Below, one piece after another: positions 23,160 to 38,835 of a DNA stretch of 38,927 bases (position 1 is its first letter; each line of letters opens with the position of its first letter). A model generated the notes under the pieces. That model did not search any database. It saw only the letters and a program-made list of their open reading frames with translations, and was not told the origin of the DNA. Position numbers and translations under genes: made by a program. This DNA comes from Albidovulum litorale (GTDB taxonomy: Bacteria > Pseudomonadota > Alphaproteobacteria > Rhodobacterales > Rhodobacteraceae): NCBI RefSeq assembly GCF_025751495.1, contig NZ_JAOWKZ010000006.1, positions 1 through 38,927 on the forward strand. Direction: 5' to 3'.

Positions 23160-24788
23160 ATGAAGAAGCAAAGACATCTACTGGCCGGGACCCTCTTGAT
23201 GAGTATCATCTGTTCCGTTCCGGCCTTGGCACAAGATTATGATCTGGTAATCAACAATGGCCGGGTCATGGACCCGGAAACCCTGTATGACGACATCGCC
23301 AATGTCGGTATCAAGGATGGCCGGATTGTTGCGATCACCAAGGACGCGCTTACCGGTGCTGAGACGGTGGATGCGACCGGGCATATCGTGGCGCCGGGCT
23401 TCATCGACACCCATTTCCTTTGGCAGACGCCCATTGGCTACCGGGTCGGCTTGCGCGACGGCTTGACCAGCAGCATGGATGTCGAGATGGGTTGTGCGGG
23501 ATCCTATGTCGCCGCCTGGTACGAGGCGCGTGCCGGTGTGACCCAGGCCAACTATGGCTGCGCGGTCAGCCACGAATTGGCCCGAGCTATGGTACTCGAC
23601 GGGTCAACGGGCGATTTCCTGATAGACGGTCCCATTGCCGGGCTGGAAACCCGGAAGAAATCGGGCTGGAGCGTGACGCGCCCGACCCTGGAACAGGGCA
23701 ACGCGATTCTCGAAGAGATTGACAAGGGTCTGCAGGCGGGCGCGCCGGGCATCGGCAGCACCGTGGGCTATATGAGGGAGGGCGTCTCTTCCCGCGAGAT
23801 GTTCGAGGTGCAGAAGGTCGGGGCACGCTATGGCCGCCTGACTGGCGCACATACACGCTATACGCTGGGCACCGACACGACCGAGGTGAACGGCGCGCAG
23901 GAAATCATCGCAAACGCAATCGCGCTCGGCGCGCCTGCGATCGTCCTGCACTTCAACAACCCCGGCTGGCGCGTGACACACGAATTGATTTCTAGACTGC
24001 AGGAAAGGGGCCACAACATCTGGGGTGAAGTCTATCCCTACGCTGCCGGGTCCACCACGTTGAATGCCTCGTTCCTGCAGCCGGAGAGCTGGGTCGAGCA
24101 GTTGGGCAACCGCTACGAAGATACCGTGCAGGACCCGGTCACGAATGAGTACTACACCCTGGAGACATTCGAGGCCGACACCGCTTCCAATCCGACCAAG
24201 CCGATCGTCGTGTTCAAGATGCCCGCCGACGATCCGCCAAAATGGCTGACGCTGAAGGGTGTCACCGTGGCCAGCGACGCGGCTCCGGTCGAACCTCTTT
24301 TCGGCCCGTGGGATATTCCGCTGGACCAGCTCGGCAACGCCCACCCACGCTCGGCTGGCACTCGAGGCGCGACGATCCGGCTCGGTCGGGAACACAACAT
24401 CCCGATGATGCAGCTGATGTCGATCCTCAGCTACAACGCAGCCAAGCACCTGGGGGATACGGGCCTGAAGGCGATGCAGGTACGCGGCCGCATCCAGACC
24501 GGGATGGTCGCCGATATCGTGGTGTTCGATCCTGAACGCTTCACGGACAATTCGACCTACGAAAAGGGTGCCGTCCCTTCAACGGGCATGAAAGCCGTGA
24601 TCGTCAGCGGTCAGGTCACGTTGCGTGACGACAAGGTGCTTCCTGTTTTCGCCGGTCAGCCGATCCGGTTTGACCCCGAAGACAAGCCGCGCTTCGTGCC
24701 AGTCTCGGTGGAAGCGTGGAATGCCGAATTCTCGACCGGCATGCCCAGTGACTTCACGGGCGCCTTCCCGGCGAATGGCGGCAATTGA
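23160..24788 (+). CDS. N-acyl-D-amino-acid deacylase (D-aminoacylase) family, copy 1, altered metal motif
   Basis: A 542-residue amidohydrolase with a Sec signal (LLAGTLLMSIICSVPALAQ), so exported. Amidohydrolase landmarks are VINNGRVMDPET, GHIVAPGFIDTHF, MGCAGSYVAAWYEA, THTRYTL-type HTRYTL, VLHFNN, NAHPRSAG and GRIQTGMVADIVVFDP. The metal-binding HxH of the family (residues 85 and 87; His-Phe-His in copies 2 and 3) reads His-Phe-Leu, codon CTT at 23418-23420. Metal binding and activity are therefore doubtful. It is a close paralogue of the genes at 29523 and 32011 and shares segments with each. The start has only a weak ribosome binding site and lies 29 bp after an IS1380 end, so expression may depend on the IS. 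Confidence 0.88.
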   Translation: MKKQRHLLAGTLLMSIICSVPALAQDYDLVINNGRVMDPETLYDDIANVGIKDGRIVAITKDALTGAETVDATGHIVAPGFIDTHFLWQTPIGYRVGLRDGLTSSMDVEMGCAGSYVAAWYEARAGVTQANYGCAVSHELARAMVLDGSTGDFLIDGPIAGLETRKKSGWSVTRPTLEQGNAILEEIDKGLQAGAPGIGSTVGYMREGVSSREMFEVQKVGARYGRLTGAHTRYTLGTDTTEVNGAQEIIANAIALGAPAIVLHFNNPGWRVTHELISRLQERGHNIWGEVYPYAAGSTTLNASFLQPESWVEQLGNRYEDTVQDPVTNEYYTLETFEADTASNPTKPIVVFKMPADDPPKWLTLKGVTVASDAAPVEPLFGPWDIPLDQLGNAHPRSAGTRGATIRLGREHNIPMMQLMSILSYNAAKHLGDTGLKAMQVRGRIQTGMVADIVVFDPERFTDNSTYEKGAVPSTGMKAVIVSGQVTLRDDKVLPVFAGQPIRFDPEDKPRFVPVSVEAWNAEFSTGMPSDFTGAFPANGGN

Positions 24789-25292: not shown

Positions 25293-26639
25293 TTAGTTTA
25301 AGTTGTTTTTGTAGATTATTCCGTCTTTCATGATCAAGTCGAAGTTGGCCTCCGCGTCGCCGACGAGATCGAGGTTTTCTAGCGGATTGCCGTTGACGAG
25401 AATCAAGTCAGCCAATGCGCCCGCCTTCACTACCCCTAGCTCCCCCGGATAGGGGTCGCGTGGACCGGAAAGCTTTAATAACTGGGCATTGTCGTGTGTT
25501 GCCATTTTCAGCACTTCAAAGGGCGTGAACCAGCGCTTCATCTTGGCCAATAACTTGCCTTGTTTTGCCGCAAGTCCTGCATCGAAAAGCACGTCTGTAC
25601 CCCAGGCGATTTTTGCGCCGTGTTTCTTGGCATATCCGTAAACGATGTCTGTGCCCGCAGTCACAGTTACAAATTTTGCTCTATTGGGCGAGCCCTCAGG
25701 AAAGGGAATGGCATCCTCATCATCGAGAATGGGTTGCATGCTGAGCCATGCACCTTTTTCAACCAAGAGTTTGATTACATCTTCACCCAACAGGTGTCCA
25801 TGCTCAATGCTCTTCACACCTGCTTCCAAGGCCTGTTTGACGGCCGTGTCCGTAAAGGCATGTACCGCGATGTAGGTATTCCAAGTGTTGGCGACCTCCA
25901 CGAGGGCGCTCATTTCAGCAAATGTGTATTGGGTTACATCTAATGGGTCGAAGTCTGATGACACCCCGCCGCCGGCCATCACTTTGAGCTGGGACGCGCC
26001 CTGGCGCAAGATTTCTCGCGACCGCTTAATTACCTCGGGCACCCCGTCCGCTATTATCCCAACACCTGCTTGCTGAAGATAATCCAGAGGTTGCCCAGGA
26101 TTCTCGGGCACAGCCAAAGGTGCACGATAGTCCCCATGACCCGAAGTCTGGGATATCACCGCCCCAGAAGGGTAGATGCGTGGTCCGTTTATAAGCCCTT
26201 CATCAGTCGCCTTCTTGATTGAAAAGACATTTCCACCAATATCGCGAACAGTGGTAAACCCTCTCATTAAGGCGCCCTCGTTCGCTATAGCCCCTTTAAA
26301 ACTCATGTAGGCCAGATCATTTGTCATCAACTCAGCCACAGAAAGCGTCGCAAACAACGAGTGCCAATGGGCGTCGATCAGCCCTGGCATCAGCGTGCGG
26401 CCGCCTCCGTCGATGACCGTGCCACCCGCGATCGCCAACGGTTCGGTCGACACTGCGGTAATCAGGTTATCCGTGACCACGACATTGGCGTTCATGATCA
26501 GGGTTTCGTTGACGCCGTCAAAGACGTTCACATTCGTGAACAGGATCGGCCCGGAGGCGTCCTGAGCTGCCACCGGCAGGGCGACGCTCATGGCGACGGC
26601 AAGCGCCGCAGTCGAGGTCTTTGGGTTTAGTTTTCGCAT
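25293..26639 (-). CDS. Exported amidohydrolase, imidazolonepropionase/Xaa-Pro dipeptidase-like
   Basis: A 448-residue metal-dependent hydrolase with a Sec signal (TSTAALAVAMSVALPVAAQ). The metal set is visible in order: HxH in GLIDAHWHSL, the bridging Lys in QLKVMAGGGVSSDF, His in YIAVHAFTD, His in SIEHGHLL, and Asp in IAWGTDVLF. This pattern is shared by prolidase-like, carboxypeptidase-like (lysine/arginine) and ochratoxinase-like members, all of which cut C-terminal amide bonds of small substrates. It is the last gene of the minus-strand hydrolase cluster. Its stop codon is followed at once by an IS110 fragment. The 3' two thirds look less G+C-rich than the 5' third. Confidence 0.88.
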   Translation of the reverse strand: MRKLNPKTSTAALAVAMSVALPVAAQDASGPILFTNVNVFDGVNETLIMNANVVVTDNLITAVSTEPLAIAGGTVIDGGGRTLMPGLIDAHWHSLFATLSVAELMTNDLAYMSFKGAIANEGALMRGFTTVRDIGGNVFSIKKATDEGLINGPRIYPSGAVISQTSGHGDYRAPLAVPENPGQPLDYLQQAGVGIIADGVPEVIKRSREILRQGASQLKVMAGGGVSSDFDPLDVTQYTFAEMSALVEVANTWNTYIAVHAFTDTAVKQALEAGVKSIEHGHLLGEDVIKLLVEKGAWLSMQPILDDEDAIPFPEGSPNRAKFVTVTAGTDIVYGYAKKHGAKIAWGTDVLFDAGLAAKQGKLLAKMKRWFTPFEVLKMATHDNAQLLKLSGPRDPYPGELGVVKAGALADLILVNGNPLENLDLVGDAEANFDLIMKDGIIYKNNLN

Positions 26640-26726
26640 TGGACGTCCCCCGTTGTCGATGCAGTGAGTTCGGTAAAGAGTTCAATCTGGCTGTGCAGGA
26701 TCGCCCCTCCACCGAACCCGTGGCTC

Positions 26727-28235
26727 TTACTCAGCCGGTTTGTCGAACACAGACCCGGAGAGGTCGAATTCATCGACCGCCCCGTCGCCCCGAATGAAGA
26801 TCCGGTGGTTGAACCGCACGAAGTTGAGTTCGCCAGACGGATCTTCGAGCAATTCACCAAGGGCGCCCTCGTTCGGGCCTTCGGTGATGATGAAATAGCC
26901 CTCGGCCGTGTTGGCCACATTGGCAGGCGCGGGATCCGCTCCGCTGGTCAATGCGGAGAACTGCACAAACACATATTTGTCGCCCTCTTTGCGGATCTCG
27001 ATGTTTTGGGAATTCCCCTTGAAGACGCCGACGAAGGGATCGAGCACAGCCGGATCAACGCCCGCGGCGACCGGAGAGTCGGCCTCGATGCCCGTGAAGG
27101 CTTTGACCATTTTGTCCGCAATTTTGCTGTAGGCTTCGACACCGCGATCGCTGTGGACCATGATCACCACGGCAAAGTCGTGTTCCGGGATCAGCTTTAG
27201 AAAAGACCGCGTGCCGGGCCAATTCCCCCCGTGGAAGGGGCTGGTGGCGCCGTCGTAGTCATGGACGAACCATGTCAGTCCGGTAAACTCGCCGACCGAA
27301 GCGTCGACTGCCGGAGCGTGGGCATAGTCCAGCGCTTCCATGGACAACAGCTGGTTCCCGGCGGCGTCCTTGCCGTCCAGCTGAAAGCGGGCGTATTTCA
27401 GCATGTCGGTAACCGTCGACCGGATTCCGCCGGAGGCTGCGGACTCTCTGATCAACGGAATGTAGTACGGCTTGAGATCACTGATGCTGCCTTCGCCGTA
27501 GATCGGCGGATGGCCCCATGCGTAATCTTTGGCCGGCGGGGTGGGGTCGTAGTTGAAGGATGACGACTCCATGCCGAGCGGGGTGAGCAGGTTCTCTTCG
27601 ATCAGGTCCTCGATCGGCTTTCCGCCGACATGCGACACCACATGGGTCGCGAAGGTGATGCTGGTGTTGTTGTACATCCAGGTTTGACCGAACGGATAGA
27701 TCTGCTCGACGTAAGCCGCCTGGAGCATGACCTTCTCGCTGATCGACCCGCCCGGAGGAACAGGAAGGAACCCATGGTCGCCATACCAGCCAGCGTGATG
27801 GTGGAACAGGTCAACGACCCGCGCTTTCGACGTTGCGTCGGGATCCGCGACCCTCCACCACGGTAGGAGGTCGACGACACGCGCGTTCAAATCCAGCTCG
27901 CCCCGTTCGGACAGCTGCAGGGCCACTGTCGACAGGAAGGTTTTGGTCACAGAGCCAATTTGAAATTGCGTATCAGGGGTAACGGGCTCTCCGGTGGTTA
28001 CGTTCGTGACACCGAGGCCGGCGCCGTAGGAGTTGGGCCCATGGATGACCCCGACACCAAGTCCCGGGATCTTCAGTTCCTTGATCAGTTCAGAAGCTTC
28101 GGCGAGCACCGCATCAAAGGTCGCCTGGCCCTCTTCCTGCGTCATGACCCGCGGAGTCTGCTGCGCAAGCGCCGGCTGAATGGCGAGTGATGACGAAACC
28201 GTTAAGGTGCACAATAGTTTACCTAAGTTATTCAC
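26727..28235 (-). CDS. Class C beta-lactamase-fold serine hydrolase (S12), exported
   Basis: A 502-residue protein. The GTG at 28235 (read as MNNLGKLLCT) is chosen because AAGGA lies 7 bases upstream; a longer frame to 28325 has no such site. A Sec signal (SSSLAIQPALAQ) precedes the S12 domain. The nucleophile is Ser95 in FQIGSVTKTF (SxxK, Lys98), Tyr188 lies in WMYNNTS (YxN), and a His-Gly-Gly motif in PFHGGNWPG takes the place of KTG. The C-terminal ~110 residues form a lipocalin-like extra domain (VGVFKGNSQNIEIRKEGDKY). Such proteins act as D-peptidases, esterases or amidases more often than as beta-lactamases. It is a cluster gene with the class A-like gene just upstream. Confidence 0.88.
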   Translation of the reverse strand: MNNLGKLLCTLTVSSSLAIQPALAQQTPRVMTQEEGQATFDAVLAEASELIKELKIPGLGVGVIHGPNSYGAGLGVTNVTTGEPVTPDTQFQIGSVTKTFLSTVALQLSERGELDLNARVVDLLPWWRVADPDATSKARVVDLFHHHAGWYGDHGFLPVPPGGSISEKVMLQAAYVEQIYPFGQTWMYNNTSITFATHVVSHVGGKPIEDLIEENLLTPLGMESSSFNYDPTPPAKDYAWGHPPIYGEGSISDLKPYYIPLIRESAASGGIRSTVTDMLKYARFQLDGKDAAGNQLLSMEALDYAHAPAVDASVGEFTGLTWFVHDYDGATSPFHGGNWPGTRSFLKLIPEHDFAVVIMVHSDRGVEAYSKIADKMVKAFTGIEADSPVAAGVDPAVLDPFVGVFKGNSQNIEIRKEGDKYVFVQFSALTSGADPAPANVANTAEGYFIITEGPNEGALGELLEDPSGELNFVRFNHRIFIRGDGAVDEFDLSGSVFDKPAE

Positions 28236-28348
28236 TGGGTTTTCCTTTGCCTTGGAGTTTTCACTGGATTTCTGCTGTTGGTGAAACGATGGTTGTTCCC
28301 AACGAGTTCTGTCTTCGCCGTGCAAGATTGCCCTAGCAGAGCCTGCAA

Positions 28349-28377
28349 GGCGAAGTTTCCCCGTTTACTGCTTCGCC
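28349..28377 (-). terminator. Hairpin at the end of the class A-like gene
   Basis: GGCGAAG (28349-28355) and CTTCGCC (28371-28377) pair around a 15-base loop that includes the stop codon of the class A-like gene. There is no T-run. It may slow or attenuate read-through into the class C-like gene. Confidence 0.35.
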
Positions 28378-29363
28378 ATCTGCCCGACGTGGAAGTAGTC
28401 GAACAGCGACCGTGCGACCTCTGCAATGGCCCGATCCCTGTCCGCCTCGGATGTCTCGCTGCTCTTGGTGAACACGGCGACGGCAAACCGACGGCCGTCG
28501 GGGAGCGTGATATAGCCGACGTCATTGGCCACTCCCCCTATGGTTCCGGTCTTGTGCGCCACGGGCGTTCCCCTCGGCAGCAGCCCCTTGAGCCGGGCAG
28601 CGCCGGTGCGCGTGCGCGACATGACATCGAGCAGGAAGTCGCGGCTCTCTGCGCTTGTCGCCGTGCCGCTGTCGATGGCAAGCAGGAGTTGCAGCATCGC
28701 AAGGGGCGTTGCGTGGTCGCGGGGATCCGCCTCGAAGTCCAGATTGCGGTCACCCATGATCGTCATGAGTTCCGGTCGGGTCACAAAGGCCTCCATGGCG
28801 ACTTTCATCGTGGCCGGTCCCGGCAGGCCATAGAATTCCCCGATGATCTCGCCAGTCGTCCGATCGACCCTGAAATCGGTGATCCCGAGCCTGCGCAGAT
28901 ATTCGGTCACTGCCGCCGGTCCGCCCGCCAGACCCATCGAGATGTCGGTCGCCGTGTTGTCGCTCTCCGTGATCATGATCTCGATCAGGTTCGCCACCGA
29001 AAGCTGAAGCCCAGGGTGCACGAATGTGTCGCTCAGCGCAGCATCCCCGATCATCATCATGTCGGGTGTGACCTCGACCATCTGGTCGAGGCTGAGTTCG
29101 CCTTTGTCGACGCGATCCAATACCGCAGCGGCAATCGCAACCTTGTAGGTGCTGGCCATGGCAAAGGTTTCATCGCCATTGAACGCGATAACCTCGTCGC
29201 TGCCGATTTCCTGCGCCGCAAAGCCGATGCGCCCCGCAAGCTTCGTCGCGACCCGCTCGATCGCGGCTCCAACGGACTGTCCGTCCGCTGTCTGGCCGTA
29301 TGCCGGGCCGAAGCTGGCCGCCGCGGAAACCGCAAGGGCCATGATGGTGTTTCGAAATTTCAT
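28365..29363 (-). CDS. Class A beta-lactamase-like serine hydrolase, exported, lacking the usual ExxLN
   Basis: A 332-residue protein with GGAGA upstream of the ATG at 29363 and a Sec signal (NTIMALAVSAAASFGPAYGQ). Class A landmarks are Ser71 in MASTYKVAIA (SxxK), SDN at 134-136 (ITESDNTATD) and KTG at 271-273 (VAHKTGTIGG). Where TEM-type enzymes have RLDRWEPELN, this protein has RVDRTTGEII, so the deacylating Glu166 aligns with Thr. About 30-35 extra residues follow before DHATPLAML. A penicillinase mechanism is therefore uncertain; another acyl-transfer or hydrolase role is possible. It lies downstream of D-aminoacylase copy 2 in the same direction. Confidence 0.82.
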   Translation of the reverse strand: MKFRNTIMALAVSAAASFGPAYGQTADGQSVGAAIERVATKLAGRIGFAAQEIGSDEVIAFNGDETFAMASTYKVAIAAAVLDRVDKGELSLDQMVEVTPDMMMIGDAALSDTFVHPGLQLSVANLIEIMITESDNTATDISMGLAGGPAAVTEYLRRLGITDFRVDRTTGEIIGEFYGLPGPATMKVAMEAFVTRPELMTIMGDRNLDFEADPRDHATPLAMLQLLLAIDSGTATSAESRDFLLDVMSRTRTGAARLKGLLPRGTPVAHKTGTIGGVANDVGYITLPDGRRFAVAVFTKSSETSEADRDRAIAEVARSLFDYFHVGQMAKQ

Positions 29364-29467
29364 TTTCGTTCTCCCTATTCTGTGAGATGGGTTTCGGGAC
29401 TGTCCCGTTCGGTATTGACAACGCGGAACCGACAGCCCGCGCTGAAGATCTGGGCAAATGGCAGCCA

Positions 29468-29503
29468 GGAGACGGAGATCAAAAACTGCATGATCCCGTC
29501 TCC
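29468..29503 (-). promoter_or_regulatory. Intercistronic hairpin between D-aminoacylase copy 2 and the class A-like gene
   Basis: The same GGAGACGG/CCGTCTCC stem as at 24808, lying in the 159-bp gap between two co-directional genes. This was presumably its original place. It could set relative expression of the two genes. Confidence 0.5.
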
Positions 29504-29522
29504 TTGCTTGGATGCGGCGCGA

Positions 29523-31151
29523 TCAATTGCCGCCATTCGCCGGGAAGGCGCCCGTGAAGTCACTGGGCATGCCGGTCGAGAATTCGGCATTCCACGCTTC
29601 CACCGAGACTGGCACGAAGCGCGGCTTGTCTTCGGGGTCAAACCGGATCGGCTGACCGGCGAAAACAGGAAGCACCTTGTCGTCACGCAACGTGACCTGA
29701 CCGTTAACGATCACGGCTTTCATGCCCGTTGAAGGGACGGCACCCTTGTCGTAGGTCGAATTGTCCGTGAAGCGTTCGGGGTCAAAGACCACGATATCGG
29801 CAACCATCCCGGTCTGGATGCGGCCGCGTTCCTGCATCGCCTTCAGGCCCGTATCGCCCAGATGCTTGGCCGCGTTGTAGCTGAGGATCGAGATCAGCTG
29901 CATCATCGGGATGTTGTGTTCCCGACCGAGGCGGATCGTAATACCCCGGGTGCCAGCCGCGCGGGGATGGGTGTTGCCGAGCTGGTCCAGCGGGATATCC
30001 CACGGGCCGAAAAGAGGTTCGGGAGGAAGCGCGTCGCTGGCCACGGTAACGCCCTTCAGCGTCAGCCATTTCGGCGCATCTTCTTCGGGCATCTTGAATA
30101 CGACGATCGGCTTGGTCGGATTGGCGGCCATGTCGGTCTTGAATGTCTCCAGGGTGTAGAAATCCCCCGTGACCGGATCCTGCACGGTATCCTCATAGCG
30201 GTTGCCCAATTGCTCGACCCAGCTCTCCGGCTGCAGGAACGACGCATTCAACGTGGTGGACCCGGCAGCATAGGGGTAGATTTCACCCCAGATGTTGTGG
30301 CCCTGTTCCTGAAGCCCAACAATCATTTGCTGGGCAAGCCGCCAGCCGGGGTTGTTGAAGTGAAGAACAATCGCCGGGGCACCCAGCGCCAGGGCATTGG
30401 CGATGAGTTCCTGCGCTCCGTTGTTCTCGGTCGTGTCGGTGCCAAGCGTATAGCGTGTATGTGCGCCAGTCGGGCGGCCATAGCGTGCGCCAACCTTCTG
30501 CACCTCGAACATCTCGCGGGAAGAGACGCCCTCCCTCATATAACCCACGGTGCTGCCAATGCCGGGTGCGCCCGCCTGCAGACCCTTGTCAATCTCTTCG
30601 AGAATCGCATTACCCTGTTCTAGGGTCGGGCGCGTCACGCTCCAGCCCGATTTCTTGCGGGTTTCCAAAGCAGCAATGGGACCGTTTATCAGAAAATCGC
30701 CCTCTGCCCCGTCGAGCACCACCGCGCGGGCCAATTCGTGGCTGACCGCGCAGCCATAGTTGGCCTGGGTCACACCGGCACGCGCCTCGTACCAGGCGGC
30801 GACATAGGATCCCGCACAGCCCGCCTCGAAATCCATGCCGCTGGTCAACCCGTCGCGCAAGCCGACCCGGTAGCCGATTGGCGTCTGCCAGTGAAAATGG
30901 GTGTCGATGAAGCCCGGCGCCACGATGTGGCCGGTGGCATCCACCGTCTCGGCACCCGTCAGCGCGTCCTTGGTGATCGCGGCAATCCGGCCATCCTTGA
31001 TACCGACATTGGCGATGTCGTCATACAGGGTTTCCGGGTCCATGACCCGGCCGTTGTTGATCACCAGATCATAGTCTTGTGCCAAGGCCGGAACGGAGCA
31101 CATGACACTTAGCAAGAAGGTCCCGGTCAGGATATGTTTTTGATTCTTCAT
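29523..31151 (-). CDS. N-acyl-D-amino-acid deacylase (D-aminoacylase) family, copy 2
   Basis: A 542-residue exported amidohydrolase. The ATG at 31151 (MKNQKHILTG) has GGAG 6 bases upstream; longer in-frame extensions are unsupported. A Sec signal (LTGTFLLSVMCSVPALAQ) precedes the domain. The HxH motif is intact (His85, His87 in GFIDTHFHWQ). A Cys in EAGCAGSYVAAW lies where D-aminoacylases carry a metal-bridging Cys, and VLHFNN, NTHPRAAG and GRIQTGMVADIVVFDP follow. The family hydrolyses N-acyl-D-amino acids to acid plus D-amino acid. It belongs to the minus-strand cluster, between the DUF3299 gene and the class A-like gene. Its last ~175 coding bases and 3' flank are apparently identical to those of copy 1. 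Confidence 0.9.
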   Translation of the reverse strand: MKNQKHILTGTFLLSVMCSVPALAQDYDLVINNGRVMDPETLYDDIANVGIKDGRIAAITKDALTGAETVDATGHIVAPGFIDTHFHWQTPIGYRVGLRDGLTSGMDFEAGCAGSYVAAWYEARAGVTQANYGCAVSHELARAVVLDGAEGDFLINGPIAALETRKKSGWSVTRPTLEQGNAILEEIDKGLQAGAPGIGSTVGYMREGVSSREMFEVQKVGARYGRPTGAHTRYTLGTDTTENNGAQELIANALALGAPAIVLHFNNPGWRLAQQMIVGLQEQGHNIWGEIYPYAAGSTTLNASFLQPESWVEQLGNRYEDTVQDPVTGDFYTLETFKTDMAANPTKPIVVFKMPEEDAPKWLTLKGVTVASDALPPEPLFGPWDIPLDQLGNTHPRAAGTRGITIRLGREHNIPMMQLISILSYNAAKHLGDTGLKAMQERGRIQTGMVADIVVFDPERFTDNSTYDKGAVPSTGMKAVIVNGQVTLRDDKVLPVFAGQPIRFDPEDKPRFVPVSVEAWNAEFSTGMPSDFTGAFPANGGN

Positions 31152-31312
31152 TGGTGTCTCCATTTCAATCTTGGTTTCTATTGATGGCTTTAGCACTAGC
31201 CGGGCGATCGTCTTGAATGCGCCCTTGGCGAATTCTTCTTTCCTGGATGCGGCGCCGCCCGGCTTCGCCAACATCTCCCGTTCTCCGGGGTTAGGGCCGG
31301 GCCATTCCCACC

Positions 31313-32008
31313 TCATCCATCCGGCAACTCGACGGTTTCGGCGTTGAGGGTCCAGCCACTCAGCATGCGCGACTCCCCGTCGAGAACGAATATGGTCTCA
31401 TCGCTTGGCTCGACGCGCAACAGCCCCGACACCCGAACCGGCAGATAAACGGATTCGACCTGTTGATCCACGCGCAGTCTGACTCTGACGAGTTGGTTTG
31501 GTGGTGGCGGCGGAAGGTGGCTGCACATTCCGACCTGCGGCACCAGATAGCCGAAACCGCTGCCATCCGCGTCTGGCGGTGCAGGGATGATATAGCCCGA
31601 GATCGAGACCTCGACGCCATCGAAGATGGGGTTGGTGGCCATGCGGGCGCTCTGCCGCTTCCTGGCGACGTCCCAGCGCTGCTCAAGCAGCGCTTCCACA
31701 TCGTGACCATTCGCTTCAAGCACTTCCCGCGCGGCGGTGCGGCGGACCTCCAGGCGCGTGCGTGTCTCCTCATCAAGATCAGTGCCAGCGAGCTTTTCGT
31801 CCGACTGAACCAACAGTTTCAATTCGTTCAGCATGTCGACCCCCATGGCTGCGTAGGGGTCGTCAAAGGCCACCGCCAACGGATCCGCCAAGTCTGAGAA
31901 CTCGATCGCCTCCGGTTCTGCAGTTGCTTGAGTGGCGGCCAATAAGGCCGCCACAAAGACAGAGATCAAGAATCGCACGCTGACTTCTTGTTGCCTGAAT
32001 GCAATCAC
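31313..32008 (-). CDS. Exported DUF3299 protein (copy B) inside the hydrolase cluster
   Basis: A 231-residue protein starting at GTG 32008, 2 bases after the stop of D-aminoacylase copy 3, so translation is probably coupled. A second GTG ten codons in is an alternative start. A Sec signal (RFLISVFVAALLAATQATA) precedes a domain with AIEFSDLADPLA, GYIIPAPPDADG and GMCSHLPPPPPNQLVRVRL, the DUF3299 hallmark also seen in the protein at 17182. Its role is unknown. Its presence between two exported deacylase genes and its relative beside an ABC transporter suggest a shared accessory function, perhaps metal handling; this is inference. Confidence 0.85.
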   Translation of the reverse strand: MIAFRQQEVSVRFLISVFVAALLAATQATAEPEAIEFSDLADPLAVAFDDPYAAMGVDMLNELKLLVQSDEKLAGTDLDEETRTRLEVRRTAAREVLEANGHDVEALLEQRWDVARKRQSARMATNPIFDGVEVSISGYIIPAPPDADGSGFGYLVPQVGMCSHLPPPPPNQLVRVRLRVDQQVESVYLPVRVSGLLRVEPSDETIFVLDGESRMLSGWTLNAETVELPDG

Positions 32009-32010
32009 GA

Positions 32011-33642
32011 TCAGTTTCCACCGTCCACGGGGAAAGCACCCGTGAAGTCACTGGGCATCCCGGTCGAGAATTCGGCATTCCATGCTTCCAGCGAGACCGG
32101 CACGAAGCGCGGCTTGTCTTCGGGCTCAAACCGGATCGGCTGACCGGCGAAGACAGGAAGCAGCACATCGTCACGCACGGTGACCTGACCGTTGACGATC
32201 ACGGCTTTCATGCCCGTCGAAGGGGTGGCACCCTTATCGTAGGTCGAATTGTCCGTGAAGCGTTCGGGATCGAACACCACGATATCGGCAACCATCCCGG
32301 TCTGGATGCGGCCACGTTCCTGCATCGCCTTCAGGCCCGTATCGCCCAGATGCTTGGCCGCGTTGTAGCTGAGGATCGACATCAGTTGCATCATCGGGAT
32401 GTTGTGTTCCCGACCGAGCCGGATCGTTGCGCCCCGGGATCCGGCGGTCCGGGGGTGTGTGCCGCCCAGCTGGTCCATCGGGAAATCCCACGGGGCGTCG
32501 TAGGGCTGGGCACCAACCCCATCGCTGGCCATGGTCACGCCCTTCAGCGTCAGCCACTTCGCCTGATCTTCTTCGGGCATCTTGAATACGACGACCGGCC
32601 TGGTCGGTTCGGATGCGATGGTCGCCTTGTAGGTCTCTAGGGTATAGTACTCATTCGTGACCGGATCCAGAATGGTTTCCTCATAGCGGTTGCCAAGATC
32701 GTCGACCCAGCTTTGAGGCTCCAGAAACTCCGCATTGATCGTGGTAGAGCCTGCAGCGTAAGGATAGATTTCACCCCAGATGTTGAAGCCCCTTTCCTGC
32801 AGCCCTGAAATCAATTCGTGTGTCACGCGCCAGCCGGGGTTGTTGAAGTGCAAGACGATCGCAGGCGCGCCGAGCGCGATTGCGTTTGCGATGAGTTCCT
32901 GCGCGCCGTTGACCTCGGTCGTGTCGTTGCCAAGCGTATAGCGTGTATGCGAGCCCGTCGGACGGCCATAGCGTGCGCCAACCTTCTGCACCTCGAACAA
33001 CTCGCGGGAAGAGATGCCCGCTCTCATATAGCCCGTGGTGCTGCCAATGCCGGGTGCGCCGGCCTGCAGGCCCTTGTCAAGCTCTTCGAGAATCGCGTTG
33101 CCCTGTTCCAGAGTCGGGCGCGTCACGCTCCAGCCTGTTTTCGCCCGAGTTGTGTAAGCGGCTACGGGGCCGTTTATCAGGTACTCGGCGCCGTCCGAAC
33201 CGTCGAGCACCATCGCCCGGGCGAACTCGTGGCTGACCGCGCAGCCATAGTTGGCCTGGGTCACACCGGCGCGCGCCTCGTACCAGGCGGCGACATAGGA
33301 TCCCGCACAGCCCATCTCGAAATCCATGCTGCTGGTCAACCCGTCGCGCAACCCGAGGGAATAACCGATCGGCATCTGAAAGTGGAAATGCGTGTCGATG
33401 AAGCCCGGCGCCACGATATGGCCGGTCGCATCAATGGTCTCGGCACCCGTCAGCGGGTCCTTGCTGATCGCAACGATGCGCCCGTCCTTCACGCCGACAT
33501 TGGCGATATCGTCGAACAGGGTTTCAGGGTCCATGACCCGGCCGTTGTTGATCACCAGATCATAGTCTTGTGCATAAACAGCGGTGGCGACCAGAGTGCT
33601 GAGCATGAGCGCACCTGGCAGAAATTTCTTACTTGGGCGCAT
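32011..33642 (-). CDS. N-acyl-D-amino-acid deacylase (D-aminoacylase) family, copy 3
   Basis: A 543-residue exported amidohydrolase with a signal peptide (FLPGALMLSTLVATAVYAQ). Landmarks match copies 1 and 2: GFIDTHFHFQ with both His (85 and 87), EMGCAGSYVAAWY, SHTRYTLGND, VLHFNN, GTHPRTAG and GRIQTGMVADIVVFDP. It is more divergent from copy 2 in the middle (AYTTRAKTGWS, YKATIASEP, SDGVGAQPYDAPW). These differences probably change substrate pocket residues while leaving the metal site. It follows the outer-membrane barrel gene and is coupled to the DUF3299 gene. Confidence 0.9.
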   Translation of the reverse strand: MRPSKKFLPGALMLSTLVATAVYAQDYDLVINNGRVMDPETLFDDIANVGVKDGRIVAISKDPLTGAETIDATGHIVAPGFIDTHFHFQMPIGYSLGLRDGLTSSMDFEMGCAGSYVAAWYEARAGVTQANYGCAVSHEFARAMVLDGSDGAEYLINGPVAAYTTRAKTGWSVTRPTLEQGNAILEELDKGLQAGAPGIGSTTGYMRAGISSRELFEVQKVGARYGRPTGSHTRYTLGNDTTEVNGAQELIANAIALGAPAIVLHFNNPGWRVTHELISGLQERGFNIWGEIYPYAAGSTTINAEFLEPQSWVDDLGNRYEETILDPVTNEYYTLETYKATIASEPTRPVVVFKMPEEDQAKWLTLKGVTMASDGVGAQPYDAPWDFPMDQLGGTHPRTAGSRGATIRLGREHNIPMMQLMSILSYNAAKHLGDTGLKAMQERGRIQTGMVADIVVFDPERFTDNSTYDKGATPSTGMKAVIVNGQVTVRDDVLLPVFAGQPIRFEPEDKPRFVPVSLEAWNAEFSTGMPSDFTGAFPVDGGN

Positions 33643-33715
33643 TTCTTACTTCCCTTCTGAGTTACGTTTACAGCTATGTGGCTTCACGAAGCCTTCAAGG
33701 GTCTCAGGCCAGCGG

Positions 33716-34480
33716 CTAAAATCCGATGACCTTGTACCCGACCTGAAGGCTCCAGTCGGCAGGGCGGTGGGCGCCCGCTAGTATCTGCGGTTTGATGAAA
33801 ATCTGGCTGTCGCCGCCAAACGCCTTTCCCATCGGAAAGCCGAAGGTGGTCGTCAGGCTGGCATATCCTTTATCCCTTTCCCAGTCGAAGATGAGGGCCG
33901 GATCAAAGGCAACGAACATTTTTTCGGTCGCAAGTTTGGGCACATAGTAGAAATCGAAGGTGGTCATGTTGATCTTGCTGCGGCCCGCATCTTCGTCGCC
34001 CAGACCGAAGGTCTGAACCAGCGACGGCGCGACGATGGAACCATCCTCGAGGAATTTGGCATAGAATCCGGATAGTTCCAGCACCGTCTGGCCGTTGCCA
34101 AGATCGGGCCGGTCAGCGCTATCGAACGAAAGCTTCGCCGTATAGGCGATCCCGCGCGTCGCATTCACGGCAAGGACATGAATAAATTTCACGTTAAGGT
34201 CGCCAAGCCCAAAACTGTCATCGACTGGGCCTGAGGCGTAGGGCAACGTGAAAGTCAGGGCCTTGTTGTTTCCTGGACCGAACGGCACCGTGAAACTGGC
34301 TTCTAAGAGGCCGTTGGAAAAACCTGATCCGAAATCCGAATACTTGTACTGAATGCCGGCGCTGGTCGCCAGAATGGTCGGGTTGGTGCCGTTGTTCACC
34401 TCGGGTTGGGACTGCGCCCAGGCCCCGGTAACCAAGATTGCCGAACACACAGTTGCGGGGATCGTCAATAGGTGTTTCAT
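33716..34480 (-). CDS. Outer-membrane beta-barrel protein, phenol-MetA-type transporter-like
   Basis: A 254-residue protein with a Sec signal (LLTIPATVCSAILVTGAWAQ) and about a dozen alternating amphipathic strands (GIQYKYSDFGSG, ALTFTLPYASGP, DLNVKFIHVLAVN, SKINMTTFDFYYVP). It ends in Phe (LQVGYKVIGF), the usual C-terminal barrel signal. The layout matches small 'MetA-pathway of phenol degradation'-type putative outer-membrane transporters often found in catabolic operons. It sits between the Tat-exported serine hydrolase and D-aminoacylase copy 3, and is the likely entry port for the cluster's substrate. Confidence 0.8.
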   Translation of the reverse strand: MKHLLTIPATVCSAILVTGAWAQSQPEVNNGTNPTILATSAGIQYKYSDFGSGFSNGLLEASFTVPFGPGNNKALTFTLPYASGPVDDSFGLGDLNVKFIHVLAVNATRGIAYTAKLSFDSADRPDLGNGQTVLELSGFYAKFLEDGSIVAPSLVQTFGLGDEDAGRSKINMTTFDFYYVPKLATEKMFVAFDPALIFDWERDKGYASLTTTFGFPMGKAFGGDSQIFIKPQILAGAHRPADWSLQVGYKVIGF

Positions 34481-34570
34481 TCAGATTCTTCCTTTTTCAC
34501 CGGGACAGCCTCAACCCATAACCAGGTTGCGGATTGCCCTATCCGGTAGCACGGCGAGGTCATCGGGCGC

Positions 34571-36007
34571 TTATCCACCGGCCAGCATTCTCGCAGCGTT
34601 ACGCAGAAATCCCGGGGAATGATCGACTCCCGAGATTTCATCCGGGTTGGGCGCCAACCCGAAATACACGCCACAGAAATCGCGGGAGGGATCGACATAG
34701 ATGCCCTGCCCCATGTTCCCGTGCTTGAACATGGCGCCGTCGTTGAAGACATGGTCCCACTGGGCCGAGTTGTAGTCAGGGACTTCGCCGAACCAGTCCG
34801 TGCCGTATTGCTCTTCGGTCGAGCCTTTGTAGGCCTCGGGATTGCCCATGGTCTGGATGCTTTTCAGCAACCTGTCCGAGATGATCTGCTCCTCCGACAC
34901 CACATTCCAGCTGGGCGTGTAAATCATCGTGTAGCGCAACAAGTCTTCCGGCGTGGTGTTGTGCATTCCGGCGCACAAGGGCGTTCCATCCGGCGCAAGG
35001 GCGGTGATAAAGGCGTTCTTCGCCCCGATTTTTGACCAAACACGTTCGTTCCACGTGGTCTGCCACCGCTCTCCGGTAACAAATTGCGTCAGCAGCACCA
35101 GTGTCTGCGTATTTGCGCCAGAATACCGGAAATGCGAGCCTGCAGGCTCATCGGGCAGCGGTTGGGCGTTCTTCGACATTTCGCGGAAATCGCCCTTGTT
35201 CAGCTCGAAACCGGCCGTGAACCATTTGGCGATCCAGGAATCCGGATTCAGCAAGTTCTCGATGGTTTCCTCGATATCGAGGCCGGAGGACATGTTCATC
35301 ACGTTGCGGACCGTGGCCTGCTCCCATGCCGACCCCCTGACCTCGGGCACATAGGTCGGGACGGGTGCATCCAGATCGATCTTGCCCTCATCGGCGAGCA
35401 TCGCGACGAGCAGACCCACGGTTGGCTTGGATGCCGACATCCAGATATGAATATCCGTGGGGTTCATTCCCGGATAAACCTCGAAAACCACTTTGCCCTT
35501 GTGCGCCATCATCATCGCCTGAACCTGACGCTTGCCGACCAGGTATTCCTTCAGCGGCGGTGTGGGTGTGCCGTCAACGGACGTATAGGTCAGATCCAGG
35601 ATCGACGAATCAATCGCGCGTTCGAGCTTCGAGAATTCCTTCGGGGGTGCGATATAAGAGCATTTGAAGAACTCAGGGATATTTAGGTTGTAGTAGATGG
35701 AGTCTTCGCTGCCGGACTGCCAATTGGGAAAACTGTAATTCCTGGTCGCCTTTTCGACGAATTCCAGAGACTGGGGCGTTTTCCATCTCGCCATCGGGCT
35801 GTCGACTTCAAGCGGCTCAAAACCTGATGCGCCGGCGCGGACTGGCCCGCTCGTCTGTGCAGAGGCAGGCTGGGATGCCAGCCCGAGCCCGGCTGCACTC
35901 GCCGCCGCTCCAACGGCAACGCCGCTTGCCATGAAGCTGCGCCGGGAAATACTCTTCAGAGCGTCGTCATCTTTGTCGTGGTCGATGCCCGCCAATTTAG
36001 TAACCAT
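34571..36007 (-). CDS. Tat-exported S12 serine hydrolase (class C beta-lactamase / NylB-like)
   Basis: A 478-residue protein. The ATG at 36007 (MVTKLAGIDH) has GGAG 9 bases upstream. It carries a twin-arginine signal (SRRSFMASGVAVGAAASAAG, Arg22-Arg23) with cleavage near PASA-QT. The nucleophile is Ser191 in WMSASKPTVG (SxxK, Lys194). FRYSGANTQTL provides the Tyr-Ser motif, and a conserved FKHGNMGQG lies near the C-terminus. The long N-terminal region before the SxxK (~140 residues of mature protein) and Tat export resemble 6-aminohexanoate-dimer-hydrolase-like amidases. MlrB of microcystin breakdown belongs to the same fold class. Tat export implies folding, perhaps with partners, in the cytoplasm. 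Confidence 0.87.
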   Translation of the reverse strand: MVTKLAGIDHDKDDDALKSISRRSFMASGVAVGAAASAAGLGLASQPASAQTSGPVRAGASGFEPLEVDSPMARWKTPQSLEFVEKATRNYSFPNWQSGSEDSIYYNLNIPEFFKCSYIAPPKEFSKLERAIDSSILDLTYTSVDGTPTPPLKEYLVGKRQVQAMMMAHKGKVVFEVYPGMNPTDIHIWMSASKPTVGLLVAMLADEGKIDLDAPVPTYVPEVRGSAWEQATVRNVMNMSSGLDIEETIENLLNPDSWIAKWFTAGFELNKGDFREMSKNAQPLPDEPAGSHFRYSGANTQTLVLLTQFVTGERWQTTWNERVWSKIGAKNAFITALAPDGTPLCAGMHNTTPEDLLRYTMIYTPSWNVVSEEQIISDRLLKSIQTMGNPEAYKGSTEEQYGTDWFGEVPDYNSAQWDHVFNDGAMFKHGNMGQGIYVDPSRDFCGVYFGLAPNPDEISGVDHSPGFLRNAARMLAGG

Positions 36008-36035
36008 AGATGAATTCTCCAGCGAGTCCGTGTTT

Positions 36036-37592
36036 TCAGTCTGCAACGACATTACGGATCGCCCTGCCATTGGGTGCGTTCAATACCAGCTCGCCGTCAC
36101 GCACCGAGAAGCCGCCGTTCACGATCACGGTTTGCACGCCCACGGTCGGTTGATTGGCGTTCTCGAAGGTGGCCAGGTCAGCCACCGTGGCGGGATCGAA
36201 GACGACGATGTCCGCGTCCATGCCCACCTGAATCCGGCCCTTGGTGCGCATCTGCGGCACGCTGTCTTCCAGCGTCTGTGCCGGCAGCAGCGACATCTTG
36301 CGGATCGCTTCGGAAAGCGACAGTATCCCGCGTTCGCGCACATAGGACCGCAGGACCTTGGTATACGCGCCTGTTGACCGCGGATGGCTGAACACATTGT
36401 CGGGAAGCGGCCATTCATCGCCATCGTATAGCAGAATGTTGCCGTTTTCATCGAAATAGGACCAGAGCACGGAATCCGAGGCGATCGCTGTCGCGGGATT
36501 GGTCACCGAAACGTCCAGCAGCGACAGGGCCGCGGGATCGGCCTCGTCCAGGAAATGCCAGACGATGAAGGTGCCGGGCTTGTTGGCCTGATAATCGGCA
36601 AGTTCATCCTCGGTCATCCGATCCGCGCCAAGCTGGAAGTTGTTGGCGGTCGAGTCCATCCGGTCGCGCCAGTTCGGGCCGCTGAACATGGCCGCGCCGA
36701 CCACGGTGCTGGCTGCGCCGTAGGGATAGGCTTCGGTCGTGACGTTGATTCCCTGGGCCTGCGCCTTTTCCACCAGCGCCATCGTGGCTTCGATATCCGA
36801 TAGCGAGGTCGAATTGATATGGCATAGATGCATGTGCGCGCCTGTTATGGCGGCGAGGCTGATCAGCTCCTGAATCGCCTCGAACGAGCTTTGTGGCTCG
36901 GTGTTGCTGGCATAGCGCACATGGGTATAGGTCGGGACATTGTATTTGTTGGCCAGTTCGGCCAGCGCGTAATACTCTTTGTGTCCAAAACCCGGCGCAT
37001 AGCCGGCGTTGATGCCGATACCCAGCGCACCGTCCTTCAGGCCCTGTTCGAGCAGCGACATGATACGCTCGGATTGTTCCGCGCTGGCGATGTCCTGCTT
37101 CCAGTCGGTGCGGCCCTGCGCATCCGTGAAAAACGCCGCCGTGGCCAAGGGATCGGTATCGCTGAAGGTCGCAATCCGGCTGTGGGTCCAGCCTGCGGAC
37201 GCGCCATAGTTCATCGGCAGCTTCTTCGTGGCCTGTTCCTCATACCAGTCGCCGACCGGCACAATGCCGGATTCAAGCTCCAGCGCCGTGGTAACGCCCT
37301 GGATGACCTGCATCCTGTAGTCGCCGATGTTCTGGCCATGGGAATGCAGGTCGATGAAGCCCGGCGACACGACATGGCCGGTGGCGTCGATCACCACATC
37401 ACCCGCCAGCGGGAATTCGCTGATCGCCATGATTTTGTCGCCCTCGATGGCGACGTTGCGAATCGCATCAAGACCGGTTTCGGGGTCGATCACCCTCCCG
37501 CCGACTATGACGATGTCATTCGCCAGCACGGCCGTAGTCGACAACAGCAGAGCCACCATCGTGGCGGCCCCCGAGGTTCTTGTTCGTAGCAT
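36036..37592 (-). CDS. D-aminoacylase-like exported amidohydrolase (copy 4, divergent)
   Basis: A 518-residue protein. The ATG at 37592 (MLRTRTSGAA) has GGGAG 7 bases upstream. A Sec signal (ATMVALLLSTTAVLAND) precedes an amidohydrolase domain with His83-x-His85 (GFIDLHSHGQ), THVRYASNTE, HLCHINSTS, TTEAYPYGAAST, the D-aminoacylase signature FSHPRSTGAYTKVLR, and GRIQVGMDADIVVFDP. The segment corresponding to the metal-bridging Cys reads ESGIVPVGDW, without Cys, so its metal centre differs from copies 1-3. It is the first gene of the nine-gene minus-strand cluster and faces the AraC-type gene across a 175-bp promoter region. Confidence 0.9.
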   Translation of the reverse strand: MLRTRTSGAATMVALLLSTTAVLANDIVIVGGRVIDPETGLDAIRNVAIEGDKIMAISEFPLAGDVVIDATGHVVSPGFIDLHSHGQNIGDYRMQVIQGVTTALELESGIVPVGDWYEEQATKKLPMNYGASAGWTHSRIATFSDTDPLATAAFFTDAQGRTDWKQDIASAEQSERIMSLLEQGLKDGALGIGINAGYAPGFGHKEYYALAELANKYNVPTYTHVRYASNTEPQSSFEAIQELISLAAITGAHMHLCHINSTSLSDIEATMALVEKAQAQGINVTTEAYPYGAASTVVGAAMFSGPNWRDRMDSTANNFQLGADRMTEDELADYQANKPGTFIVWHFLDEADPAALSLLDVSVTNPATAIASDSVLWSYFDENGNILLYDGDEWPLPDNVFSHPRSTGAYTKVLRSYVRERGILSLSEAIRKMSLLPAQTLEDSVPQMRTKGRIQVGMDADIVVFDPATVADLATFENANQPTVGVQTVIVNGGFSVRDGELVLNAPNGRAIRNVVAD

Positions 37593-37767
37593 TTTCAAGC
37601 TCCCGCGATTGCATAGGTGATTAGCGCCGAGCGCTCGTAACCAGAATCTCTTCGTGTCTGGCCTGAAAGCTACACTGCCCGTGAGGTCAGGTCTTTGCAT
37701 CTCATGCCCGCAGTGGCACAATTGTATAGCGTGTGGTTAAGCCCCTTAAAGATGAGAAAAAGCCCGG
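37593..37767. promoter_or_regulatory. Divergent promoter region of the hydrolase cluster and AraC-type gene
   Basis: 175 bases between two divergent starts. It must hold the promoters of both the regulator (plus) and the first cluster gene (minus), and is the expected binding site of the AraC-type protein. No clear -35/-10 pair or palindromic operator could be picked out by eye. Confidence 0.5.
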
Positions 37768-38835
37768 ATGAGCAAGCCATCTGCCCCGAAATTTACCCGA
37801 GCAATGTTGGTTTTGTACCCGCTCGGCAAGGCATTCGCCTTGCGCGGCGGCGATATCGACGCTTTGCTTGCCCGCAACAGGATTCCGCTCGGCGCGCTGT
37901 CCGATCCTGCGATGCTGGTTGAGGCGACCGCCTGTTATGCTGCCATGGAGGACATGGCCGAAACTCTCGGCGACCCGTATTTTGGCGCAACGGTGGCGAT
38001 CGAAGTCGCCCGGAAGGGGACGCCCGGGCTCCGGGAAGCGGCGAGCCACGCGGCTACCCTTGGAGATTTCCTCTCCCGGGTGATTGTGGAGGTTTCGAAG
38101 CAAGTTGATAATGTCAGGTATTCCTTAATCGTTTTACCCGACGTTGCAAGCTTGGAGATTCTGCGCACGATCAGGGTGTTGAGGCCATCAAGACAATTGG
38201 ATGCAGTCGGCGTCGCCTTCTACGTGACCGTGATCAGACAGGGTATCGGTGGCACTTTTGACCCCAAAGACATCCTCGTCACTGTGCCGACCACCGCAGG
38301 TCTTCCGCCGGGGTTTCTGCCGAAACAGGCGCTTGTGAAATCCGAGATCAACGGCTTGCGGATTTCTTTTCCGCCGCAATGGCTTTGGACGCCATTCTCG
38401 CTGGACTGGGACCTGGTGGAAGCGTCACGAGGGGAATTCGCGCCCGACGGCACCAGCGAAGCACCCCTTTCCTATCTTCGTAGCATGCTTGCGGATAACA
38501 TCGCTCAACACGATCTGACTCTTGATGTATTTGCCGCAATCTGTGGCCTGCATCCACGTCGTGTACAGCGCATCCTACAGGCAAAGGGCACCTCCTTCAG
38601 CCAGATGAAAGACGACGTGCGCCAGAGCGTCAGCGAAGACCTCCTCTCGAACACAACTCTACCCATCTCGCAAGTCGCCCTTCAGGTAGGCCTCTCCGGC
38701 CCGGCCGCCCTCGACAGGGCATTCAGGCGATGGACCGGCAAGACGCCGACAGGATTTCGGGCCGAATCCAAATCGGATCCGGATGCCCAAGTTGTGGATA
38801 ACGGATCCGGGTCCAGTACCAGCAACGAACCGTAA
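37768..38835 (+). CDS. AraC-family transcriptional regulator (OruR/ArgR-like, Arabinose_bd type)
   Basis: A 355-residue regulator starting MSKPSAPKFT. The N-terminal ~200 residues match the Arabinose_bd (PF12625-type) effector domain, with GGDIDALLARNRIPLGALSD near the start. The C-terminal ~90 residues form the double-HTH AraC domain: LTLDVFAAICGLHPRRVQRI and LPISQVALQVGLSGPAALDR, then FRRWTGKTPTGFR. It is divergent from the amidohydrolase at 36036 and is the only regulator in the hydrolase region, so it is the natural controller of the cluster, probably as an activator responding to the substrate or a product. Regulators of this subtype often respond to amino acids. Confidence 0.92.
   Translation: MSKPSAPKFTRAMLVLYPLGKAFALRGGDIDALLARNRIPLGALSDPAMLVEATACYAAMEDMAETLGDPYFGATVAIEVARKGTPGLREAASHAATLGDFLSRVIVEVSKQVDNVRYSLIVLPDVASLEILRTIRVLRPSRQLDAVGVAFYVTVIRQGIGGTFDPKDILVTVPTTAGLPPGFLPKQALVKSEINGLRISFPPQWLWTPFSLDWDLVEASRGEFAPDGTSEAPLSYLRSMLADNIAQHDLTLDVFAAICGLHPRRVQRILQAKGTSFSQMKDDVRQSVSEDLLSNTTLPISQVALQVGLSGPAALDRAFRRWTGKTPTGFRAESKSDPDAQVVDNGSGSSTSNEP

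Follow-up and report, generated by a model that had tools for sequence, protein, structure and literature searches.

Genes of the cluster

The window analyzed here is an entire contig (C11, 38,927 bases) of the 4.05-Mb genome of Albidovulum litorale, and it carries a cluster of genes for exported hydrolases headed by a divergent AraC-type regulator gene; bases 1-17000 were covered by Pfam scans only. Nine minus-strand open reading frames (ORFs; g1 to g9) and the plus-strand AraC ORF are present where a preliminary description of this DNA had placed them, and the Pfam families agree with its assignments, namely PF07969/PF01979 in g1, g4, g6 and g9, PF00144 in g2 and g8, PF13354 in g7 and PF11736 in g5. 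With the starts chosen here, the gaps between neighboring genes from g1 to g9 are -35, 90, 73, 2, 161, 159, 39 and 87 nucleotides (nt). Export signals had been claimed for all nine genes and were recovered, with a twin-arginine translocation (Tat) motif, RRSFM, in g2 and Sec-like sequences in the remaining eight, as read from the N-termini by eye rather than by a signal-peptide program. The three D-aminoacylase-like proteins of the same description all hold as PF07969 members; a fourth, g0, encoded on the plus strand at 23160-24788, had been missed.

With respect to these deacylases, g1 (36036-37592, minus strand; ATG at 37592 within an ORF at 36036-37721) encodes a D-glutamate-deacylase-like exported amidohydrolase (dAA1) that passes the curated cut-off of NF006560/PRK09061 at 712.8 versus 340 bits, a family that we take to be that of D-glutamate deacylase. 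The type B protein g4 (32011-33642, minus strand) and the type A protein g6 (29523-31151, minus strand, in an open ORF that reaches 31316) are D-aminoacylase-like exported amidohydrolases that fall just short of this cut-off, with 334.8 and 336.7 bits, and the best solved match of g4 is an N-acyl-D-glutamate deacylase. The motif HxH, Glu, His, His, Asp is intact in all three, and its residues (HxH, E/C, H, H, D) are presumably metal ligands. Compared with N-acyl-D-glutamate deacylase (3gip)/PRK09061, of which g1 is a member by cut-off, the window deacylases differ in having signal-like N-termini, in occurring in several copies per cluster and in the altered HxH of one copy.

That copy is g0, a type C protein in which HxL replaces HxH, as it does in all three members of the type (window 23160-24788, L075:11662-13302 and L076:7318-8907; L numbers denote loci). 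The gene lies inside an inverted repeat with g6, in that a 1801-nt inverted repeat spanning g0 is 91% identical to 29372-31172. A plain local inverted copy of g6 was considered and rejected, as HxL is common to two gammaproteobacterial genes and the middle of g0 (bases 300-1200) is 92-97% identical, in 150-bp windows, to the type C gene of Seongchinamella. Since this middle matches the Seongchinamella gene and the 3′ end is 100% like g6, g0 looks like a mosaic third paralogue that is g6-like at its ends. Because HxL occurs in all type C members, yet the ratio of nonsynonymous to synonymous substitution rates (dN/dS) of g0 is 0.15 against two gammaproteobacterial homologues, the type C deacylase may work with a single metal or have acquired a different function.

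The remaining enzymes are serine hydrolases and a further amidohydrolase, all encoded on the minus strand. Specifically, g2 (34571-36070) is a Tat-type, NylB-like S12 serine hydrolase whose best solved match is 6-aminohexanoate-dimer hydrolase (NylB; 4.6e-22), and g8 (26727-28325) is an exported S12 serine hydrolase with IS11 (7spn) as its best solved match (1.4e-59). The exported amidohydrolase g9 (25293-26639) is of the prolidase/ochratoxinase type; its best solved matches are the prolidases 3mkv and 3feq, ochratoxinase was matched too, and it scores 217.2 against a cut-off of 500 on NF051886. The class A beta-lactamase-like serine hydrolase g7 (28365-29363; PF13354, NF033103) is considered separately below. 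Among the other proteins, the exported DUF3299 protein g5 (31313-32008) has a Cys and a His (C162 and H164) that do not vary in an alignment of 25 DUF3299 sequences from both types. The 254-residue g3 (33716-34480) had been described as an outer-membrane barrel, an assignment that is favored by its signal-like start, by its C-terminal ...YKVIGF and by the OprB porin gene (PF04966) found downstream of g5 in Ruegeria-type loci; a Pfam search with g3 gave no match even at E<=10, and we therefore refer to it as a putative barrel.

Beyond g9 the minus-strand set resumes at 21134-21457 and at 17182-19894, broken by insertion sequence (IS) elements. The first of these stretches is an N-terminal remnant of an M81/MlrC-type metallopeptidase gene (21134-21457, minus strand; 108 residues matched), and the second holds genes for a ZrgC-like ATP-binding cassette (ABC) ATPase (19199-19894, minus strand; PF00005), a ZrgB-like FtsX/MacB-type permease (17859-19199, minus strand; PF02687, PF12704) and a second, ZrgE-like DUF3299 protein (17182-17862, minus strand; PF11736, 122.6 bits). 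Between this ABC module and g9 lie, in order, an IS3-type transposase gene with an integrase core that adjoins the M81 remnant (19954-20757, minus strand; PF13683, PF00665), the remnant itself, an IS1380-type transposase gene (DDE_Tnp_1_4) that interrupts the set (21563-22912, plus strand; PF13701) and the reversed g0; the IS3 and IS1380 family names are those we presume for these transposases. The remnant is 92% identical to the intact gene of L079, which has both PF07364 and PF07171. Tropicimonas sp. IMCC6043 and Shimia aestuarii are among the hosts whose M81 gene is intact. The order in L070 is g9-type gene, intact M81 gene, ATPase and permease, and L079 has the same order plus a barrel-like and a second g9-type gene ahead of M81. 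Because an intact M81 gene, ATPase and permease follow the g9-type gene in both loci, we read the window as carrying a damaged version of a longer unit.

Recurrence and exchange among distant hosts

With g4 as the query, pattern-based scanning of 84,980 species genomes yielded 24 distinct named loci. Part of what the preliminary description named as its refutation, that the gene set is conserved together nowhere else, is contradicted by its recurrence as a set in these loci. They span Rhodobacteraceae-type and other Alphaproteobacteria, Gammaproteobacteria (Seongchinamella, Alcanivorax, Ferrimonas, Colwellia and Psychromonas), Planctomycetes (Bythopirellula and Stieleria) and Bacteroidota (Eudoraea), groups that we assign from the host names, and they hold overlapping subsets of the genes, often in the same order. 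The locus counts were made at >=30% identity within 10-kb flanks and contig ends, and are lower bounds. The g5-type DUF3299 gene was found in 20 of the 24 loci, the class A-like gene in 19, the g6 type in 16 and the g9 type in 14; the g4 type was counted in 18, a figure that is itself uninformative as the loci were chosen by g4. Homologues of g1 and the ATPase occur in 11 each, and araC, the S12 gene g8, the permease and the second DUF3299 gene in 10 each. M81 was found in five and the S12 gene g2 in four, and a barrel of any type in 12, with g3 homologues in three. In L080, L088, L089, L091 and L092, no class A-like gene was within reach of the 10-kb flanks and contig ends.

The set is rare and patchy. 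Relatives of g4 (E<=1e-80) were found in three of 385 Alphaproteobacteria and in 12 of 295 members of the window's family, own genome included, and four of these 12 family matches are only 39-47% identical; relatives of g7 (E<=1e-60) occur in three of 385 class members and seven of 295 family members. Spread by plasmids appears weak, g4 having matched four of 72,556 plasmid records at 43-62% identity and g7 none (E<=1e-70). The plasmid match in Alisedimentitalea (L113) has an AraC gene and one amidohydrolase gene nearby.

In terms of exchange between hosts, RpoB identity to the window's genome is 94% in a same-genus genome that carries the cluster (G010), 89% in the hosts of L070 and L079, 81% for L074, 73% for L078 and 59-60% for L075, L083, L084 and L085; the L076 host gives 64 and 50% in two pieces, and those of L087, L082 and L091 give 50% over ~60% of RpoB length. 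The best g4/g6-type deacylase identities are 99% for G010, 95% for L070, 93% for L079, 94% for L074, 84% for L078, 92% for L075, 84% for both L083 and L084, 78% for L085, 91% for L076, 84% for L087, 80% for L082 and 84% for L091. Deacylases are thus 78-92% identical in hosts whose RpoB proteins are only 50-64% identical. For example, Seongchinamella sediminis shows 90% for g4 and 87% for g7 versus 60% for RpoB, and g4 identity is 84% in Eudoraea and 80% in Bythopirellula, where RpoB identity is 50% over a portion of the protein. Identities are lower for other genes, including the class A-like gene in L087 and L082 (64-66%) and, in L075, g5 (65%) and the g9 type (54%). Genes of the cluster have passed between phyla, and these comparisons point to a horizontally shared functional unit across classes and phyla.

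For the genes of the enzymes, the barrel, the DUF3299 proteins and the ABC module, every pair that yielded a value (a few did not) has a dN/dS between 0.06 and 0.35, and the computed enzyme pairs are under purifying selection. Synonymous divergence (dS) between the window and the Seongchinamella locus L075 is 0.44 for g4, 0.28 for g6, 0.31 for g7 and 0.29 for g0, as against 1.16 for g5 and 1.41 for g9, and these much higher values indicate that parts of the cluster have different histories. Unequal dS of this kind, together with the variable content among hosts and, within the window, an inverted duplication and insertion elements of the IS1380 and IS3 types, might be taken to mean that unrelated exported hydrolases were gathered by insertion sequences without a common pathway. 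Against such gathering, the same gene order and content are found again in different phyla with high identity, together with a linked regulator, an intergenic motif and purifying selection; chance assembly is made unlikely by recurrence in unrelated hosts, and we regard this explanation as very improbable indeed.

The regulator gene (37768-38835, plus strand) encodes an AraC-type protein with an Arabinose_bd N-terminal domain and HTH_18 (PF12625, PF12833), and its homologues in the named loci are divergent and adjoin the first cluster gene. The araC-g1 intergenic region contains a candidate operator, GGCATGAGATGCAAAGA (37692-37708, minus strand). The pattern GGCATKNNNNGCAAANA is found in 16 of 23 aligned araC-cluster junctions (22 distinct, some of them near-duplicates) and is absent from those of L088, L089, L096, L111, L099, L107 and L108. 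In the window's own genome it has five exact matches, two of them at the two araC junctions; when one mismatch is allowed there are 52 matches versus 15 for a reversed control, so only the exact pattern is useful. The motif was derived from the same loci and hence is not an independent test; it supports common regulation, short of proof. The dN/dS of the regulator is 0.25-1.28 over the computed pairs; against five alphaproteobacterial homologues it is 0.38-1.28, which is above that of the cluster enzymes. Upstream of araC in L071, L077 and L095 are large genes that, as read from sequence, resemble phage or gene-transfer-agent tail proteins.

Two surveys with g7 gave 10 places outside the own genome, and the surroundings of nine were compared (L072, which was taken as the G501 place by contig coordinates, L095, L102-L107 and L110; G678 was left out at a contig edge). 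In all nine, a gene from a further family of the set lies no more than 10 kb away; for L110 (G183), such genes are just 24-26% identical. Three of them (L102, L103 and L104) hold a small unit of araC, class A and S12 genes without g1-g6, and L103 also holds an M81 gene some 6 kb off. A second small unit is present in the own genome at C10:30051-34459 (L097), with an araC gene 73% identical, a class A gene 93% identical to g7, an S12 gene 87% identical to g8 and a deacylase at 55-56%. Since such small units occur in L102-L104 and on C10, the window cluster appears to be fused from a deacylase unit and a class A/S12 unit, either of which can be headed by an AraC gene of its own.

The class A-like enzyme and described systems

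In sequence, g7 exceeds the NCBI curated class A beta-lactamase cut-off (NF033103, 240.2 versus 200 bits), and it has the family, SxxK, SDN and KTG in common with class A beta-lactamases such as PER and LRA-5; S71xxK74, S134DN, K271TG, R168 and D216 are invariant in 20 sequences of the g7 family. It differs from those enzymes in a 49-residue omega loop, both ends of which (R168 and D216) are kept, and apparently in a displaced or absent Glu166; in TEM we take the loop to be 16 residues. Two residues after R168, where a count from that end places Glu166, the g7 family has Thr or Val; if the count instead starts at D216, N207 would correspond to Asn170, with no Glu at 166. The solved matches of g7 include PER-type enzymes, and the omega loop was left unaligned in the solved-chain matches shown. 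At L085:8897-9894, in the Colwellia locus, the class A-like gene was matched as two pieces in different ORFs and may be frameshifted.

A related gene arrangement appears in the available part of PMC12777771, where a table for lineage L4 of Vibrio vulnificus lists an ABC permease, an ATPase, two DUF3299 proteins, a D-aminoacylase, a class A enzyme and an N-acyl-D-glutamate deacylase side by side. There the locus serves as a lineage marker for polymerase chain reaction (PCR) design, without functional comment in that part of the article. It amounts to a reduced set, in which S12, g9 and M81 genes are not listed, and is likened to ours by gene names, not by sequence. The class A gene, beside DUF3299 and D-aminoacylase genes, was named PER-1 by an annotation program (PMC12777771); this may be a wrong resistance label if the gene is of the g7 type.

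Such names raise the question of a beta-lactam island, in which beta-lactam rings would be opened by the class A and S12 enzymes, as a defense or as a source of food, and side chains would then be stripped from the products by the deacylases. The curated score, the invariant SxxK, SDN and KTG, the PER-type solved matches and, by name, the PER-1 gene of Vibrio are in line with this idea. It is at odds with Glu166 and Asn170 lying out of their usual places when counted from R168, with the 49-residue loop, with the company that g7 keeps in the window (five amidohydrolases and a transporter module) and with the lack of any g7 match among the 72,556 plasmid records. On balance we think a beta-lactam island quite unlikely.

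The nearest analogue of the window set is the mlr cluster (mlrA-F) for microcystin degradation in Sphingopyxis sp. C-1 and its kin. That cluster holds the Ser-Lys hydrolase MlrB, the M81 metallopeptidase MlrC and the D-aminoacylase MlrF together (PMC4520899), and is held to be a horizontally acquired island (PMC4520899 and, in its available part, PMC6563193); MlrB is described in the accessible text of PMC10467064 as a penicillin-recognition Ser-Xaa-Xaa-Lys enzyme. The MlrB, MlrC and MlrF families are all present in the window set (PF00144, PF07969; that of MlrC only as a remnant), a likeness at the family level only. Beyond mlr, our set has several deacylases, the class A-like enzyme, the AraC regulator and the ABC/DUF3299 module. 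In addition, its M81 protein is only distantly MlrC-like, the intact relative scoring 130.6 versus a cut-off of 999 on NF041767 (MlrC). We also searched six genomes for PF02517, which we take to be the family of MlrA-type, CAAX-like proteases that open the ring. The own genome has a single match, on C7 rather than the cluster contig C11; the L075 host has none, the hosts of L070, L076 and L087 have none at the locus, and the L079 host has none inside the locus and one match near a contig end without placement. Full mlr membership was thus rejected, as the MlrA-type gene is missing from the contig and M81 is below MlrC grade.

These comparisons bear on whether the set could be a marine mlr counterpart that breaks down nodularin-like or other cyclic peptides of cyanobacteria. 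In its favor, members of the families of MlrB (Ser-Lys hydrolase), MlrC (M81) and MlrF (D-aminoacylase) are found together, as they are in mlr (PMC4520899); the location of the own genome's only PF02517 match and the low M81 score speak against it, as does the scarcity of M81 (five of 24 loci, and broken here). We judge it distinctly improbable. The preliminary description had stated that no system of this composition was described. For function this stands, in that no functional description of the gene combination was found in the literature searched, among the matches listed, which were mostly judged by titles and abstract openings; it fails in that a reduced set is tabulated in the available part of PMC12777771 and mlr is a close functional analogue. 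We therefore regard the window set, whose composition is new, as a mobile cluster for catabolism by exported amide hydrolases.

The ABC/DUF3299 module resembles the zrgABCDE zinc transporter of Vibrio, in which zrgE is a DUF3299 gene that lies with zrgBC in the Zur-controlled zrg operon (PMC9817125, available part). ATPase, permease and DUF3299 genes occur together in both, the difference being that the window module is joined to a hydrolase cluster; the likeness is one of family, not of sequence comparison. As to the permease, zrgB is presumably of the FtsX type.

A proposed periplasmic pathway

To our knowledge, few defined exported pathways for D-residue peptides are known. Taken together, these observations lead us to consider it rather probable that the horizontally shared, AraC-controlled cluster serves to break down an N-acylated amide or peptide with D residues in the periplasm, in an inducible manner and with its own metal supply. 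The divergent AraC-type regulator would respond to an inducer, which is probably the substrate itself or a product of its breakdown, and an outer-membrane pore would admit a small N-acylated, D-residue-containing amide or peptide. Step by step, the periplasmic Ser-Lys hydrolases (two S12 and one class A-like) and metallo-amidases would then split it into its amino acids and acyl moieties; the metallo-amidases would comprise a number of N-acyl-D-amino-acid deacylases, an enzyme of the prolidase/carboxypeptidase type and, where relatives have the gene intact, an MlrC-type M81 enzyme. The ZrgCBE-like ABC/permease/DUF3299 module and g5 may supply or deliver metal to the exported enzymes, an idea suggested by the place of zrgE, a DUF3299 gene, beside zrgBC in an operon under Zur control. 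Judged by family, amides with D residues are reasonable candidates for the substrate, because the best solved match of g4 is an N-acyl-D-glutamate deacylase and g1 is far over the NF006560 cut-off. The preliminary description had likewise proposed a periplasmic pathway, for an N-acylated, D-residue-containing or cyclic amide; a co-inherited, exported and regulator-linked hydrolase set bears out that part, and the Zrg-like module, the MlrC-type remnant and the fourth deacylase had escaped it.

Several points weigh against this pathway. Gene content varies among hosts, and L080 has g4 alone of all queried genes. Given this variation and the dS of g5 and g9, well above that of g4, g6 and g7, one fixed, jointly moved pathway is not proved. 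Around the best plasmid match, in Photobacterium sp. DA100 (L112), the only queried genes are two deacylase genes. D-specificity is argued from family membership only; type C deacylases have lost one HxH histidine, and OngB, a relative of these deacylases whose solved chain was matched in our solved-structure comparison, deacetylates an oxidized amino sugar (PMC12017989, available part). A search for PF10986, the family of the periplasmic zinc-binding protein ZrgA, found it in none of eight genomes, control genomes being silent as well. Finally, the local copy may no longer be fully in use, since in the window the M81 gene is broken and the ABC module is cut off by IS elements.

Peptidoglycan salvage offers a different account, in which the set would trim the stem peptides of dead bacteria in sediment at L-Ala/D-Glu and diaminopimelate (DAP)/D-Ala bonds. 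The chemistry of these bonds would fit D-Glu/D-Ala deacylases and DD-peptidase-like Ser-Lys enzymes. Roots for sediment, sand, estuary or tidal flat occur in nine of the 24 host names (by name, with no baseline), and an intertidal Rhodobacteraceae strain, which may or may not carry the cluster, grows on peptidoglycan according to the available part of PMC11747546. Conversely, peptidoglycan is ubiquitous, unlike this rare and mobile set, and there is no glycan-cleaving enzyme among the Pfam-scanned window proteins. Overall, salvage seems unlikely.

Returning to the proposed breakdown of D-residue amides, the cluster is common to very different, mostly marine bacteria and most likely digests peptides with mirror-image amino acids. 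As their source we would guess peptides of marine sediment, either nonribosomal ones with D residues or ones derived from peptidoglycan. According to PMC12363236, D-amino acids are important components of refractory deep-sea organic matter; the available part of that article holds nothing on deacylases. The recurrence of these enzymes, with deacylases that stay 78-92% identical from one class or phylum to another, provides a direct genetic handle, and the tie between a Zrg-like module and exported metallo-amidases suggests a testable role for the uncharacterized DUF3299 family. More tentatively, and as a possibility that we would not yet call probable, the g7-type enzyme may be a class A fold rebuilt by a tripled omega loop into a peptidase or esterase, working in an undescribed, mobile, exported D-residue-peptide pathway with its own metal-supply module and labeled a class A/extended-spectrum beta-lactamase by annotation tools. 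If it is not a beta-lactamase, such naming would be a false resistance call.

An anti-phage defense role was also considered, and PADLOC gave no match with six proteins. Elsewhere in the window, ORFs of 622 and 254 residues without a Pfam match lie at 15193-17061 and 17089-17853 (plus strand); the latter overlaps the opposite-strand second DUF3299 gene and may not be a gene. Two IS240-type transposase ORFs (PF13610) lie on opposite strands at 8989-9693 and 9425-10273.

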